From Gammaproteobacteria bacterium (GTDB lineage Bacteria; Gemmatimonadota; Gemmatimonadetes; Longimicrobiales; Gaopeijiaceae): DNA of 64,000 nt. The notes under the pieces were generated by a model. That model saw only the letters and a list, made by a program, of their open reading frames with translations, searched no databases and had not been told where the DNA came from. The stretch's first letter is position 1, and every line of letters starts with the position of its first letter. This document shows, piece after piece, positions 12,187 to 24,273 of the stretch. The DNA is taken from contig JAPPMM010000002.1 in NCBI GenBank assembly GCA_028819075.1, positions 1-64,000 on the forward strand, given 5' to 3'. A program made the position numbers and the translations under genes.

Positions 12187-12600
12187 ATGGGCGTACTCAC
12201 CATCCGCAACGTGGACGACGATGTGATCGCCGCGTTAAAGGCACGGGCCAGGGCCAATCATCGCTCGCTCGAGGGGGAACTGCGCTATCTGCTCGAGCGC
12301 TCCGCAGCCCCGAGACCTGCGCTCGGCCTGGTGCGCGAACGGGCCCGGATGGCTGCCCGATACCGCGCGGATTCGACGGTTGCGACCACCGCGTCCGACG
12401 TCCGGCCCACCGTGGTCGGGGCGGTCGGGCCAGCTCCCGACACGGGCCTTGGCGTGGAACCCGACAGCGGAGAATGGATGGGGGCCATGAGCGACCTGGG
12501 CGAGATCGTGGGCGACATCGTGTCCCCGGCGATCGACCCCTCCGACTGGGCCGCGCTCCGCCCGGACATCGACGGGCCGAACGGTGTCGACAAGCCGTGA
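12187..12600 (+). CDS. FitA-like ribbon-helix-helix antitoxin
   Basis: A 137-residue protein whose N-terminus (MGVLTIRNVDDDVIAAL, then NHRSLEGELRYLLER) is the FitA/Arc-type ribbon-helix-helix that binds operator DNA as a dimer. The usual FitA is about 80 residues; here about 95 more residues with no recognised domain follow, presumably including the segment that wraps the toxin. The ATG at 12187 was chosen because the family begins right there; the frame is open much further upstream but without similarity. Its stop overlaps the GTG start of the PIN-domain toxin (GTGA), the coupling typical of a type II toxin-antitoxin pair. Autoregulation by the complex is expected from the family. Confidence 0.8.
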   Translation: MGVLTIRNVDDDVIAALKARARANHRSLEGELRYLLERSAAPRPALGLVRERARMAARYRADSTVATTASDVRPTVVGAVGPAPDTGLGVEPDSGEWMGAMSDLGEIVGDIVSPAIDPSDWAALRPDIDGPNGVDKP

Positions 12601-12992
12601 ATCTGCTTCTCGACACCCACATCTGGCTCTGGAGCCTGCTGGAGCCTGATCGGCTCTGCGGCCGGGCGCGCAACGAGCTGATCGACCCGGCGAACACCCT
12701 GGCGCTCTCGTCCGTGAGCATCTGGGAAGCGCTGGTGCTGGCCGATAAGGAACGCGTGCTGCTCCGCCCCGATCCCTGGAGCTGGATCCGTACCGCCCTG
12801 ACCGTCCGCCCCTTGCGCGAACTCCCCGTGACGTTCGACATCGCGCTGGGCAGCCGCACCGTCCGTCTCGGTCATGACGATCCCGCCGATCGCTTCATCG
12901 CGGCCACCGCCGTGGCGCACGGGCACACCCTGGTTACGGCGGGCGAGTCGCTCCTGCGGTGTCCCGACATCCGGGTGATGTCCGGCGCCTGA
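12597..12992 (+). CDS. PIN-domain toxin (VapC type)
   Basis: A 131-residue PIN-domain ribonuclease. The start is GTG inside the antitoxin stop codon. Motifs fit VapC: NLLLDTHIWLW holds the first catalytic Asp, SIWEAL the Glu, and DDPADRFIAATA the next acidic pair, all Mg-binding in the family. The THIWLW form is that of the COG3744 PIN subgroup. Expected action is cleavage of tRNA or other structured RNA when free of antitoxin. Complete and apparently functional. Confidence 0.88.
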   Translation: MNLLLDTHIWLWSLLEPDRLCGRARNELIDPANTLALSSVSIWEALVLADKERVLLRPDPWSWIRTALTVRPLRELPVTFDIALGSRTVRLGHDDPADRFIAATAVAHGHTLVTAGESLLRCPDIRVMSGA

Positions 12993-13358: not shown

Positions 13359-13512
13359 TTCCAGCAACCCGATCCCTCCCGTGGAGCGTTCTCCGGCCGC
13401 CTCGATTCGCGGCCGTTGGCCAGCCAAAAGTAGACGCGAACCCGGAAGCGTGGAAGCTTGAGCGAATGGAACGGAAGCTGATGATCTACGGTGCGACCGG
13501 GTGTCACAAGTG

Positions 13513-13541
13513 TTGACAACATGCACACGTTGGATGTTGAT
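13513..13541 (+). promoter_or_regulatory. Putative brnTA promoter
   Basis: A consensus -35 TTGACA at 13513-13518 is followed after 17 or 18 bp by GTTGAT/TTGATT. Transcription would begin close to the ATG at 13548, giving a nearly leaderless brnT mRNA. The only strong -35 lies just inside the cassette. Confidence 0.45.
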
Positions 13542-13547
13542 TGGATC

Positions 13548-13829
13548 ATGCCTCCCGACTTCGATTGGAACGTGGAGAAGAACGAGCGACTCGTCGAGCA
13601 ACGAGGCATCTCGTTCGAACGCATCGTTTCCGCCATCGAGCAGGGCGGTTTGGTGGATGTCCTGGAGCATCCAAATCAGGACCGGTACCGGGGCCAGATG
13701 ATCTACGTCGTCGACGTTGAGGAGTATCTCTACCTGGTACCGTTCGTTACCAGTGCGGACGGCACGCGTTTCTTGAAGACCATCATCCCCAGTCGAAAGG
13801 CGACGAGACACTACCGGAAGAGGCGATGA
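13548..13829 (+). CDS. brnT: BrnT-like toxin
   Basis: A 93-residue ribonuclease toxin of the BrnT family (RelE-like fold). The N-terminus PPDFDWNVEKNERLVEQRGISF matches the family pattern F-x-W-D-x-x-K-x-x-x-N-x-x-K-H-G-V-x-F, and RYRGQMIYVVDVEEY and the basic C-terminus (SRKATRHYRKRR) fit the catalytic face. The ATG at 13548 gives the usual size; an in-frame ATG at 13521 would add nine residues. The toxin gene comes first and overlaps brnA by ATGA, the normal order. It lies in the small cassette inserted between duplicated copies of the next gene's start. Confidence 0.82.
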   Translation: MPPDFDWNVEKNERLVEQRGISFERIVSAIEQGGLVDVLEHPNQDRYRGQMIYVVDVEEYLYLVPFVTSADGTRFLKTIIPSRKATRHYRKRR

Positions 13830-14107
13830 TCGTGAGTGACCAGTTGAACACCGAAGAGCGGGAGATCCTGGAGGCATTCGAACGAGGTGAATTGAGGCCC
13901 GCTCCGAGGGCGGATCGTGAGATGCAAATCGCGCCTCAAGCGGCCCGCAGTACCTTCAAGAAGACCCGAAGGGTCAACCTGCGGGTAACGGAACTCGACT
14001 TCTCCCGAGCCCACGCGAGGGCGCGCGAGGAGGGCATTCCCTATCAGACGCTGTTGTCGAGCGTCATCCACAAGTACCTGGCGGGACGGCTGGTAGAGAA
14101 GCGATAG
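13826..14107 (+). CDS. brnA: BrnA-like antitoxin
   Basis: A 93-residue CopG/ribbon-helix-helix antitoxin. The C-terminal half carries the DNA-binding fold (RRVNLRVTELDFSRAHARA, then GIPYQTLLSSVIHKYLAG). The pattern 'GIPYQTLLSSVIHKY' is typical of BrnA/COG5304 proteins. It overlaps brnT by four bases and stops directly before the ATG of the saccharopine-dehydrogenase-like gene, with no gap, so translation of that gene may now be coupled to the antitoxin. BrnA normally represses its own promoter. Confidence 0.82.
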   Translation: MIVSDQLNTEEREILEAFERGELRPAPRADREMQIAPQAARSTFKKTRRVNLRVTELDFSRAHARAREEGIPYQTLLSSVIHKYLAGRLVEKR

Positions 14108-15205
14108 ATGATGATCTACGGCGCGACCGGGTACACGGGCCGGCTGGTCGCGGCGGAAGCGGTCGAAGCCGGCGTGCGGCCCGTGCTTGCTGGCCGCGAT
14201 GCGGAAAAGCTCGGAGTTCTGGCCGATTCCTTGAGCGCCGCGGTGGACGGGGAGTCCCGGGGCTCGCCGCTCGAGACCCACGCGTTCGGCCTGGACGAGC
14301 CGGCGAGGATCGCCACGGCCCTGCGGGACATCGACGTGGTGCTGCACTGCGCCGGCCCCTTCTCCCGCACCGCGCTGCCGATGTTCGACGCCTGCGTCCG
14401 GACCGGTACGCACTACGTCGACATTACCGGCGAGATCAGCGTCTGCGAGGCGCTTGCGGCCCGGGATGCGGAGGCGCGAGAGGCAGGGGTCATGGCGCTG
14501 CCTGCGGCCGGCTTCGACGTCGTGCCGAGCGACTGCCTGATCGCCGATCTGGCCGCACGGCATCCCGACGCGCGCATCCTGCGGCTGGGCCTGTTCGTCC
14601 GTTCCGGAGCCTCGCGCGGCACGATGAAGACGGCGCTGGAGGGCGTAAACGCGATTCGCATCCGGCAAGGCGGCGTCATCACGCGGGTCGCCGCAGGCAG
14701 CCTGCGGCACGCGTTCGACTTCGGGCGCGGGCCGGCCGCAGCTCTCGTGACACCCTTGGCGGATGTCTCGACGGCCTGGTGGTCGACCGGCATCGAGAAC
14801 ATCGAGACCTACTATCGCGCCGGGAGAAGACTCCCGCAGCTCATGCGGTTGAGCCGGTGGTTCGGCTGGCTGCTGGCCGGGCGTACGGCCCAGGCCCTGC
14901 TGCGCAGCTGGATCGACCGTGGACCCGAGGGACCGAGCGACGCGCAACGCAGGACCAGCGAGGGGATCCTAGTCGCGGAGATCGAGGATGCCCGGGGCCG
15001 TCGCGCCGCCGCCCGCATGCGCGTTCCCGATCCTTACGGATTCACCGCGAAGACCCTGGTGGCTATGGGGGTGCGCGTGCTGGACGGCGACTTCAAGGCC
15101 GGATACCAGACACCGTCCTCGGCGTACGGCGCCGACTTCGTCCACGAGTTTGATGGCGTGGAGTGGGAGGTGCTGGCGTCCCCTAACGCGCCAGCCAGGT
15201 GCTGA
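14108..15205 (+). CDS. Saccharopine dehydrogenase-like NAD(P)-binding protein
   Basis: A 365-residue protein with an N-terminal Rossmann motif GATGYTGRL at residues 5-13, the LAGRD end of strand 2, and HCAGPFSR, typical of the saccharopine-dehydrogenase/trans-acting enoyl reductase family. The protein lacks most of the lysine-pathway enzyme's C-terminal domain signature, so lysine metabolism should not be assumed; lipid or polyketide reduction is an alternative. The first ATG follows immediately after the brnA stop. The codons MIYGATGYTG are shared with the repeat copy at 13479, showing that the native start was probably ATG 13466 before the cassette inserted. The 3' end overlaps the convergent solute-binding protein gene by 23 bp. 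Confidence 0.8.
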   Translation: MMIYGATGYTGRLVAAEAVEAGVRPVLAGRDAEKLGVLADSLSAAVDGESRGSPLETHAFGLDEPARIATALRDIDVVLHCAGPFSRTALPMFDACVRTGTHYVDITGEISVCEALAARDAEAREAGVMALPAAGFDVVPSDCLIADLAARHPDARILRLGLFVRSGASRGTMKTALEGVNAIRIRQGGVITRVAAGSLRHAFDFGRGPAAALVTPLADVSTAWWSTGIENIETYYRAGRRLPQLMRLSRWFGWLLAGRTAQALLRSWIDRGPEGPSDAQRRTSEGILVAEIEDARGRRAAARMRVPDPYGFTAKTLVAMGVRVLDGDFKAGYQTPSSAYGADFVHEFDGVEWEVLASPNAPARC

Positions 15206-22264: not shown

Positions 22265-23251
22265 CTAACACGCGATGCGCTGCGGCCGAAGGTCCGGCAT
22301 CGCCACCCTGCGTACATACCGGGCCACCGTGCGCATGCCATCGACTCCGATCCGGGCGCCGAACGCCTGATTGTAGTTGGTTGTGCCGTTGATGTCATAC
22401 GTGTAGCGGTTGCCGCGGGCATCCTCCACGAATTCGATTCCGGCGATCTCGATCCCCTCCTCGATGCAGAGCCGGATGTACCTCTGGACCAACGGGTCGC
22501 CGGCCGCGATCGGCGAGGGGCTGAAGAGGTCGGCAGCATCCGTGCCGCCCGCACCCGTCCAGAAGCTCTCGCGGTTCGGAGGCATCGGATTGCAGGCATC
22601 CGAGGGGCAGAGTTCGAACCCCCCGGCCGTGGAACTCCGCATCGCGAACACGAAGCGGCTGCCAACGATCTCCACCCTCGTGATGAATGGTTCGGGTGCC
22701 GGGATGTACTGCTGCAGGATCACCCGGGCGCCGGGCCCGGCGTCGAAGCTCCTGTCGTCGAGATGTTCTTCGAGCTTCCCGGGGTCCTGGAAGAGCCGGA
22801 TGCCCAATCCCTTGCCCCCCTGATCGTGCTTGGAGATGAACGGGCCGTCGAAGGTTGCGGCCGCTTCGCGCACATGCTCCTTCCCGACGGCCAGCACCGT
22901 CCGCGGCGTCCTGATCCCGTGTCGCCGCAGGACGAGGTCCTGGCGAAGCTTGCTCATCTCCAGCTCGAAGGCGCCCAGCCCGTTGATCACTCGACGGCCG
23001 TGGGACTCCAGCCAGAACAGGAGCTGGCGAGCCAGCTCCACCGTGTGGACGTGACCCCGGGTGTGCGAGGACGGGCTGATGCGGTTCATCCAGATGCCCT
23101 CTGGAGGAGGCGCCGACGGGTCGACGATCCCCTCGTTCACGTGCACGAGGCGGACGCGGAAGCCTTCGCTCTCGAGGGCCTCCTGGAGTGGCGGGATCCA
23201 AACAATATTCTCGTAGAGGATATTTATTGTCGGTAGCACAGGGCTGATCAT
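22265..23251 (-). CDS. ATP-grasp ligase (RimK-like)
   Basis: A 328-residue ATP-grasp enzyme. The central ATP-grasp region has LRQDLVLRRHGIRTPRTVLAV and the glycine-rich loop PFISKHDQGGKGLGIRLF, and the metal site near the C-terminus is IEFVEDARGNRYTYDINGTTNYN, with the expected E and DxN residues. RimK/LysX-type enzymes join an amino acid or peptide to a carboxylate using ATP; the substrate is unknown. The gene is preceded by a minus-strand intrinsic terminator and a 32-codon cysteine-rich open frame, suggesting either an attenuated leader or a peptide substrate. The beta-propeller gene follows by 39 bp. ATG 23251 is the first in-frame Met with similarity directly after it. Confidence 0.82.
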   Translation of the reverse strand: MISPVLPTINILYENIVWIPPLQEALESEGFRVRLVHVNEGIVDPSAPPPEGIWMNRISPSSHTRGHVHTVELARQLLFWLESHGRRVINGLGAFELEMSKLRQDLVLRRHGIRTPRTVLAVGKEHVREAAATFDGPFISKHDQGGKGLGIRLFQDPGKLEEHLDDRSFDAGPGARVILQQYIPAPEPFITRVEIVGSRFVFAMRSSTAGGFELCPSDACNPMPPNRESFWTGAGGTDAADLFSPSPIAAGDPLVQRYIRLCIEEGIEIAGIEFVEDARGNRYTYDINGTTNYNQAFGARIGVDGMRTVARYVRRVAMPDLRPQRIAC

Positions 23252-23299
23252 GGTTCTCTCTGAGGTTTGGGCAGGGTCGAACGGCGGATCGGGAGCACG

Positions 23300-23331
23300 A
23301 AAAAACCGCCCGGATCGGCTGACCGGGGCGG
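23300..23331 (-). terminator. Intrinsic terminator upstream of the ATP-grasp gene
   Basis: Read on the minus strand, CCGCCCCGG and CCGGGCGG form a GC stem (one bulge) around a 9-base loop, followed at once by six T residues. It lies 49 bp before the ATP-grasp start and 34 bp after the stop of a small cysteine-rich open frame on the same strand. It can end transcripts from the XRE gene side or act as an attenuator. Confidence 0.75.
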
Positions 23332-23364
23332 CTCGGAAGCGGCTTGAGCTCGGGACTCAGCGCG

Positions 23365-23463
23365 TCAACACACCCGGATCCAGGCGGAACATGGACACGA
23401 GCACCTACAGGGGCAGGTCGCTCCGCGAGCGCGGGGGGATCGGATGTCGGTTGCGTGGATCAT
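23365..23463 (-). CDS. Small cysteine-rich open frame (possible leader peptide or precursor)
   Basis: A 32-codon frame, ATG to TGA, with six cysteines, five of them in the segment TCPCRCSCPC, plus a final Cys. It lies on the ATP-grasp strand, 33 bp before an intrinsic terminator that in turn precedes the ATP-grasp start. The upstream bases show no clear Shine-Dalgarno site, and the peptide is too short to judge by composition alone. If translated it could be an attenuation leader reading Cys availability or a precursor modified by the ATP-grasp enzyme. If not, it is a chance frame. Stated as a candidate only. Confidence 0.25.
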   Translation of the reverse strand: MIHATDIRSPRARGATCPCRCSCPCSAWIRVC

Positions 23464-23560
23464 GGCGAGGGAAGATGTCGGAAACCGGTTTGGGGGACAA
23501 GCGCGGCCGGTCAGCGGTCTCAGCCAAGGCGATCCACGGTTGGCCTTTGGTGCGAATCAC

Positions 23561-23872
23561 TCACCCGCCGAGAGCCCGCAAAACTGCTTCGGGCTCGCGG
23601 TCGATGACCGTGAGCAGGACGCGGGCTGCGCGGTCGGGCACCCGCCGTCCCTGTTCCCATTCCTGAACGGCCCGTACATGGAGGCCGAAACTGTCGGCGA
23701 ACCTCTGGCGGCTCAGCTTCATCCGCTTGCGCAGCGCCAGGATGTGCTCGGGGGCCGGGTCGTCGACGATTCGGCAGGGAAGGGGTCTGGTGCCACGCAC
23801 ATGGGCGAGCACTTCGCCGAGGGCTCCCTCCAGCTCGTGTCCCAAATCGGTTCGCTGGCTAGTCATCGGCAT
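23561..23872 (-). CDS. XRE family antitoxin-like regulator (orphan)
   Basis: A 103-residue protein with a C-terminal helix-turn-helix: HILALRKRMKLSRQRFADSFGL, then HVRAVQEWEQGRRVPD, the pattern of HigA/NadS antitoxins where helix 3 starts with the xxWExGxRxP motif. It probably binds DNA and silences its own promoter. ATG 23872 is preceded by a good GGAGG site. The expected HigB-type toxin gene should sit next to it; none is recognisable in the 180 bp upstream, so the pair appears broken. Neighbour on the opposite side is the HicBA pair. Confidence 0.75.
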   Translation of the reverse strand: MPMTSQRTDLGHELEGALGEVLAHVRGTRPLPCRIVDDPAPEHILALRKRMKLSRQRFADSFGLHVRAVQEWEQGRRVPDRAARVLLTVIDREPEAVLRALGG

Positions 23873-24051
23873 CGCTCCTCCTTCTTGATCGCGGCAACGA
23901 GTCACGAAGAGCATAAGGTGCGGCAATGCCGTATCCAGAGCAACAGCACTCTGGGGCCATGGCGGTCCGGTTGCTGGAATCTGCGAACCCCCCCACCTTC
24001 GACGGGTTACAAGACCCGCTGCAGCCGGGACAGCTTGAAGGGAGATTTGAG

Positions 24052-24273
24052 ATGAAGAGGCACTTGACGGCGATCGTCGAACGTGAAGGCAACGGGTACG
24101 TAGCTTTATGCCCGGAGGTGGATGTTGCCAGCCAGGGAGACTCCGTGGCCGAGGCGCGCGCGAATCTCCAGGAAGCAATCACGCTCTTCCTCGAAACGGC
24201 GTCCCCCGAAGAGATCGAAAGACGCTGGCGCAGCGAAGTCTATGTGACCCAGGTCGAGGTCGCGGTTGGGTAG
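24052..24273 (+). CDS. hicB: HicB-like antitoxin
   Basis: A 73-residue protein with the partial RNase H-like HicB fold: RHLTAIVEREGNGYVALCPE, then DVASQGDSVAEARANLQEAI. This is the short form, lacking a separate DNA-binding domain. ATG 24052 starts the similarity; the frame runs further upstream without similarity. The stop overlaps hicA by 8 bp. HicB first, HicA second is the less common order but well known. It neutralises HicA by binding it. Confidence 0.8.
   Translation: MKRHLTAIVEREGNGYVALCPEVDVASQGDSVAEARANLQEAITLFLETASPEEIERRWRSEVYVTQVEVAVG

Follow-up and report, generated by a model that had tools for sequence, protein, structure and literature searches.

How chromosomal toxin-antitoxin (TA) pairs relocate without a transposase is unsettled; reviews note their mobility and give no route. 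The question is raised here by a 64,000-nucleotide stretch of DNA (the window) from a sponge-associated bacterium, in which a BrnT-like toxin gene and a CopG-type antitoxin gene (brnTA) are enclosed by two direct repeats at the start of a saccharopine-dehydrogenase-like gene. We put at roughly 75% the probability that, in the lineage that includes the window and a related genome, G002, a brnTA unit entered the dehydrogenase gene at its start, with about 22-24 bp of the target duplicated and the gene thereby regenerated.

The two repeats, TGATGATCTACGGTGCGACCGGGT and TGATGATCTACGGCGCGACCGGGT (Table 1), are identical at 23 of 24 positions, which confirmed the one-mismatch 24-bp pair described in the first-pass annotation, and at 25 of 27 when extended three bases leftward. 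Their direct-repeat score is 20; the best scores in 150 dinucleotide-shuffled versions of the stretch averaged 8.9 and peaked at 14. The left copy lies in a short open reading frame that opens at ATG 13466 and ends at a TGA in the first bases of the cassette (TGTTGACA), bearing out the earlier interpretation of this copy as an interrupted gene start, and the right copy does begin the intact gene, at ATG 14108 or 14111. An assembly artefact was ruled out as the source of this structure, because G000:C2 and G059:C122, from two assemblies of the species, both show it and its right junction, antitoxin-TAG-ATG-dehydrogenase, is also found in G002 (contigs L028 and L102), a sixth other species of the genus, whose contig starts inside the antitoxin gene.

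Table 1. Features of the brnTA insertion and of the empty hicAB target in the window
Feature	Position	Strand	Remarks
Cut-off dehydrogenase start	13466..13516	+	16-codon ORF MERKLMIYGATGCHKC*; homologous to intact starts in L026, L027, L033
Left target-duplication copy	13479..13502	+	22 bp to 13500; 24 bp with final GT
8 nt GTCACAAG	13503..13510		Between left repeat and conserved unit
Conserved left edge, TGTTGACA...	13511..13547	+	Presumed promoter/operator with leaderless start
BrnT-like toxin gene	13548..13829	+	93 aa; PF04365 match
CopG/RHH-type antitoxin gene (brnA-like)	13826..14107	+	93 aa; 4-nt overlap with brnT
Intact saccharopine-dehydrogenase-like gene	14108..15205	+	Start regenerated as MMIYGATG; PF03435 E=5.8e-13
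Right target-duplication copy	14109..14132	+	Within intact dehydrogenase gene
Single (empty) hicAB target copy	15183..15204	+	22 bp

The empty site predicted by the first-pass annotation, with one repeat copy, an ATG start and no cassette, was found in five other species of the genus: G007 (contig L026), G008 (L027), G009 (L033), G005 (L029) and G001 (L031). In these genomes the gene starts at an upstream ATG and reads MERKL, MKRKL or MRERKL before continuing into MIYGATGYTG. The window aligns with G007 and G008 as far as 13500 and then again from 14106 or 14098, the two matches overlapping by 25-33 nt in the relative, which is the signature of insertion with target duplication; G009 gave the same break and overlap with a shorter upstream match (13387-13500). 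Window sequence thus matches both sides of the site in these three genomes, and only about 32 nt upstream of the site are alignable in G005 and G001. The dehydrogenase of G003 also contains a single copy, with no ATG at the equivalent position. Because cassette-free genomes carry the repeat as dehydrogenase coding sequence, the repeat is duplicated host coding sequence and a target rather than a part of the cassette.

Insertion with a target duplication, as first proposed, therefore stands; as to its length, 22 bp fits the alignments better than the proposed 24 bp. The alignment of the window to the empty sites stops at 13500. After GACCGG, G002 and the empty genomes read CTAC or ATAC and the window GTAC (the right copy continues GGCTAC in G002 and GGGTAC in the window), and the left copy reads GTGTC. 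Since the final GT is found only in the window, our best reading from the sequences is a duplication of 22 bp (13479-13500 and 14109-14130), with 24 bp as the upper reading, and the matching final GT of the two repeats is probably due to chance or to a later change. The GTCACAAG segment is absent from the empty sites and from other copies of brnTA.

Precise loss of brnTA in G007 and G008, instead of a gain in the lineage to which the window and G002 belong, is possible. A tree based on up to six loci grouped G007 with G008 (98.8/98) but did not resolve the window and G002, and the root inside the group formed by all four had low support (12.5/49). Quartet site patterns (44:32:26) favoured a split of the window and G002 from G007 and G008, which matches which genomes hold which cassette. 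A local rearrangement, in which tandem duplication placed the gene start against an upstream brnTA and deletions then removed the first brnTA and the spacer, we consider quite improbable. In G001 (L031 3892-3950), 59 bp of brnT survive as a remnant (88% identity) about 40 bp before the start of the intact dehydrogenase, which is what such a history might leave behind, but three events are needed, one of which must be base-exact where the antitoxin stop meets the gene, G007, G008 and G009 showed no trace of brnTA immediately upstream, and the second cassette described below is left unexplained.

The inserted cassette has the properties of a discrete unit. When the toxin protein and the cassette DNA were searched against 121 genomes of the family and 295 of the class, full-length brnTA was found in G005, G070, G078, G076, G033 and G073 and in four genomes of another family, at different loci with unrelated flanks and never more than once per genome in the genomes searched, several of which contained remnants only. 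Nucleotide similarity among the copies starts at TGTTGACA (13510-13512; five bases further out in G148 and G232) and ends at the antitoxin stop or within a few bases of it (16 bases short in G033). Across nine copies, mean pairwise identity rises at the left edge from 0.27 outside to 0.94 in the first 8 nt, and drops from 0.81 to approximately 0.26 just beyond the antitoxin stop codon. The cassette is thus a promoter-to-stop unit with sharp bounds, about 597 nt long and with a presumed promoter, although such ends are functional limits and alone are no proof of exact element ends. A -35-like TTGACA is located at 13513-13518; since a consensus scan of the left edge gave no complete sigma-70 promoter, we infer the promoter from conservation. 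A search for repeat-flanked brnTA at other loci, suggested by the first-pass annotation, came back empty: no convincing flanking repeats were found within 150 nt of the other full-length copies, which fits a repeat derived from the target and not one that travels with the cassette.

The toxin matched PF04365 over 75 of 77 positions with E=2.5e-6; its 28.1 bits fall short of the 34.5 set as the curated cut-off, and all seven toxin members scanned gave matches to the same family (E down to 2.1e-7), so that we describe the predicted protein as BrnT-like, short of formal PF04365 membership. Matches of the antitoxin to PF12441 were weak (six of seven copies), with E=0.004 and 18.3 bits in the window, under the curated cut-off of 28. 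Ratios of dN/dS were 0.09-0.19 for the toxin and 0.08-0.14 for the antitoxin. ATG 13548 is the sole candidate toxin start kept in all full-length copies, and the starts at ATG 13521 and GTG 13491, which are not, were rejected. Inspection of the insert and an inverted-pair search of its ends found no transposase, recombinase or terminal inverted repeats; the insert holds the two TA genes only, and the earlier statement that no transposase is present was borne out. Because cassette divergence follows that of the host gene (85.7% against G005, with 84% for the dehydrogenase), distant horizontal transfer was rejected and brnTA more likely moved within the lineage.

A different TA pair, hicAB, is present at the 3' end of the dehydrogenase gene in the sister species G007 and G008. 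It consists of a HicB-type antitoxin gene, which scores above the curated cut-off of PF05534 (57.2 bits against 21), and a small partner gene with no Pfam match. On either side of the cassette lies a 22-bp repeat, CTAACGCGCCAGCCAGGTGCTG, exact in G008 and carrying two changes in G007, and the target is single-copy in the window, G002 and G001. This target doubles as the 3' end of a convergent substrate-binding-protein gene; after insertion, the dehydrogenase stop is kept by the left copy and the stop of the convergent gene by the right copy. Like brnTA, hicAB occurs at unrelated loci elsewhere as a promoter-to-stop unit, and the fresh insertion includes approximately 98 nt of extra sequence upstream of that unit, so the segment that moved was not exactly the conserved unit. 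No terminal inverted repeats, transposase or recombinase were found in the hicAB insert by inspection. In G008 (L104 9600-10190) the partner gene has been internally deleted, from 104 to 52 aa, and the antitoxin gene is intact.

Two enzyme-driven explanations may be weighed against this pair of cases. Many integrases leave direct repeats around an insert and regenerate gene ends, and the brnTA insert shares these features, so the repeats could be read as the attL and attR of a circular cassette integrated site-specifically in an integron- or phage-like manner. We regard this as highly improbable: the targets TGATGATCTACGGCGCGACCGG and CTAACGCGCCAGCCAGGTGCTG are unrelated, the edges of other brnTA copies contain neither core, and the inserts contain no recombinase. 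Alternatively, the cassettes may be non-autonomous elements mobilized in trans by a transposase with a long stagger. Two unrelated TA cassettes whose duplications can both be read as exactly 22 bp would suit such an enzyme, and some IS1202-family elements duplicate 16-28 bp, but those elements have terminal inverted repeats and a transposase (PMC10132070), whereas the inserts here have neither terminal inverted repeats nor a common end sequence, and the extra donor flank in the hicAB insert is also difficult to accommodate. Mobilization in trans therefore seems unlikely to us, and insertion of a unit that brings no enzyme of its own is preferred.

About 1.06 Mb of sequence from the genus, in eight contig sets, was compared pairwise for indels of 250-4000 nt. 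The brnTA indel between the window and G007 was recovered at 605-608 nt with a duplication of 22-25 bp, and brnTA and hicAB, each compared with several empty genomes, were the only indels with a convincing duplication of at least 15 bp. Several other indels carry TA-like genes without a duplication. That the duplication-flanked cases total two, and that older brnTA copies lack a duplication, we count against the reading of insertion with duplication. Other candidates were rejected. A 1.2-kb indel in G008 (138727-139909) gave an alignment overlap of 17 bp against G009, which shrank to 1-2 bp when G007 and G001 were used, and the empty site in G061 for the brnTA of G078 proved to be a messy replacement of an intergenic stretch with no duplication. 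In G033 an exact 24-bp direct repeat, 1414 nt apart (L052 1167-2604, copies at 1167 and 2581), surrounds a beta-propeller-like gene, but it is probably no target duplication of that gene, since relatives with the gene indicate that the second copy belongs to a separate extra stretch. A repeat of about 87 bp at gene starts in G001, G002 and G007 (L231-L233) is better explained by a change of gene order involving two genes with similar starts. At this last locus (L231 400-1550) a porin-like gene is located beside a gene with a similar start, over approximately 67-110 bp, in G001, G002, G007 and G009; gene order differs in G005, possibly reflecting a start rearrangement.

Since neither a transposase nor terminal inverted repeats were found, we infer the mechanism of insertion. 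In the lineage that gave rise to the window and G002, a brnTA unit of about 597 nt, with some 9 extra bases, would have been inserted among the dehydrogenase's first dozen codons, leaving the left target copy as the 16-codon remnant and allowing the ATG of the right copy to restart the gene. A unit without a transposase may have gained entry at a staggered break or when repair switched templates, and such insertions might survive because addiction opposes loss of the cassette and the duplication spares neighbouring genes. TA pairs may therefore move without carrying a transposase. That the TA cassettes here share one enzyme-less mechanism with a near-constant 22-bp duplication, and would therefore insert into gene ends or overlapping convergent genes without breaking them, is a doubtful but tenable extension.

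The dehydrogenase stayed intact because the insertion copied about 22-24 bases of its target, and the in-frame ATG of the right copy allowed the gene to be regenerated immediately behind the antitoxin gene, the brnA TAG (14105-14107) abutting ATG 14108. Its dN/dS between the window and G002 is 0.18, and the gene is still under purifying selection. Transcription and translation of the dehydrogenase would now continue from brnTA, and the dependence on the cassette promoter and on coupled translation from brnA put forward in the first-pass annotation is plausible from this arrangement; transcription by read-through from upstream of the cassette is also possible. At its other end, the window gene has lost the stop codon of its relatives and is 9 codons longer (15170-15205), the added part being antisense to where the convergent substrate-binding-protein gene ends.

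The closest mode on record is the insertion of restriction-modification (RM) systems with long target duplication, reportedly first described by Nobusato et al. in 2000. These duplications are of the order of 100 bp (PMC3874152; PMC3031569). The cases here resemble RM insertions in that a selfish pair of genes with addictive properties, not carried by any known mobile element, has a long direct target duplication around it, recognized by comparison with related genomes in which the site is single-copy and the unit absent. Unlike RM insertions, these cases involve type II TA cassettes, and their duplications, of 22-24 and 22 bp, are shorter, although they exceed those usual for transposons. The predicted brnTA genes are organized like type II BrnT/CopG-type modules, with the toxin first, overlapping genes, and small ribonuclease-toxin-like and RHH-type proteins, but their PF04365 and PF12441 scores fall under the curated cut-offs of the filed families. 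Small promoter-bearing units that relocate are also found as TA-bearing integron cassettes; unlike these, the inserts lack an integrase gene and their two targets are unrelated coding sequences, each of them duplicated. The absence of terminal inverted repeats at the insert ends likewise distinguishes them from DDE transposons and MITEs. TA systems have been termed highly mobile in review (PMC2654758), and we found no report of TA cassettes inserting with such duplications in the literature searched, a claim of novelty that is limited because subscription journals were thinly covered. Two recent insertions of unrelated TA families into one gene, with matching empty sites in closely related genomes, tie TA mobility to the mode proposed for RM systems and illustrate that insertion into coding sequence can spare a gene when the duplication restores the gene end. 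They also provide a searchable signature for well-sampled genera, namely repeats of 20-30 bp around a promoter-to-stop unit.

The region around the dehydrogenase looks like a hot spot for TA genes. A VapBC-type pair (FitA-like RHH and PIN domain; 12400-12992 in the window) is located on the upstream side of the dehydrogenase in the window, G007, G008 and G001 and downstream in G005, G003 and G009. Farther along, G003, G005, G009 and G004 hold brnTA or a remnant at the locus matching window 23500-24270, where the window and G007 have what looks by eye like an XRE-type regulator gene, with a HicB-like gene behind it in the window. The brnTA-bearing locus and the window have the upstream flank (22301-23519) in common, and an ancestral brnTA locus beside it was considered; that idea lost ground because the G009 sequence there is much closer to G003 and G005 than to the window, a pattern suggestive of recombination between species. 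The public titles of these contigs conflict, with L026, L027, L028 and L032 set against L029, L030, L031 and L033 under the names Gammaproteobacteria, Gemmatimonadetes and BD2-11 clade, and the genomes are closely related.
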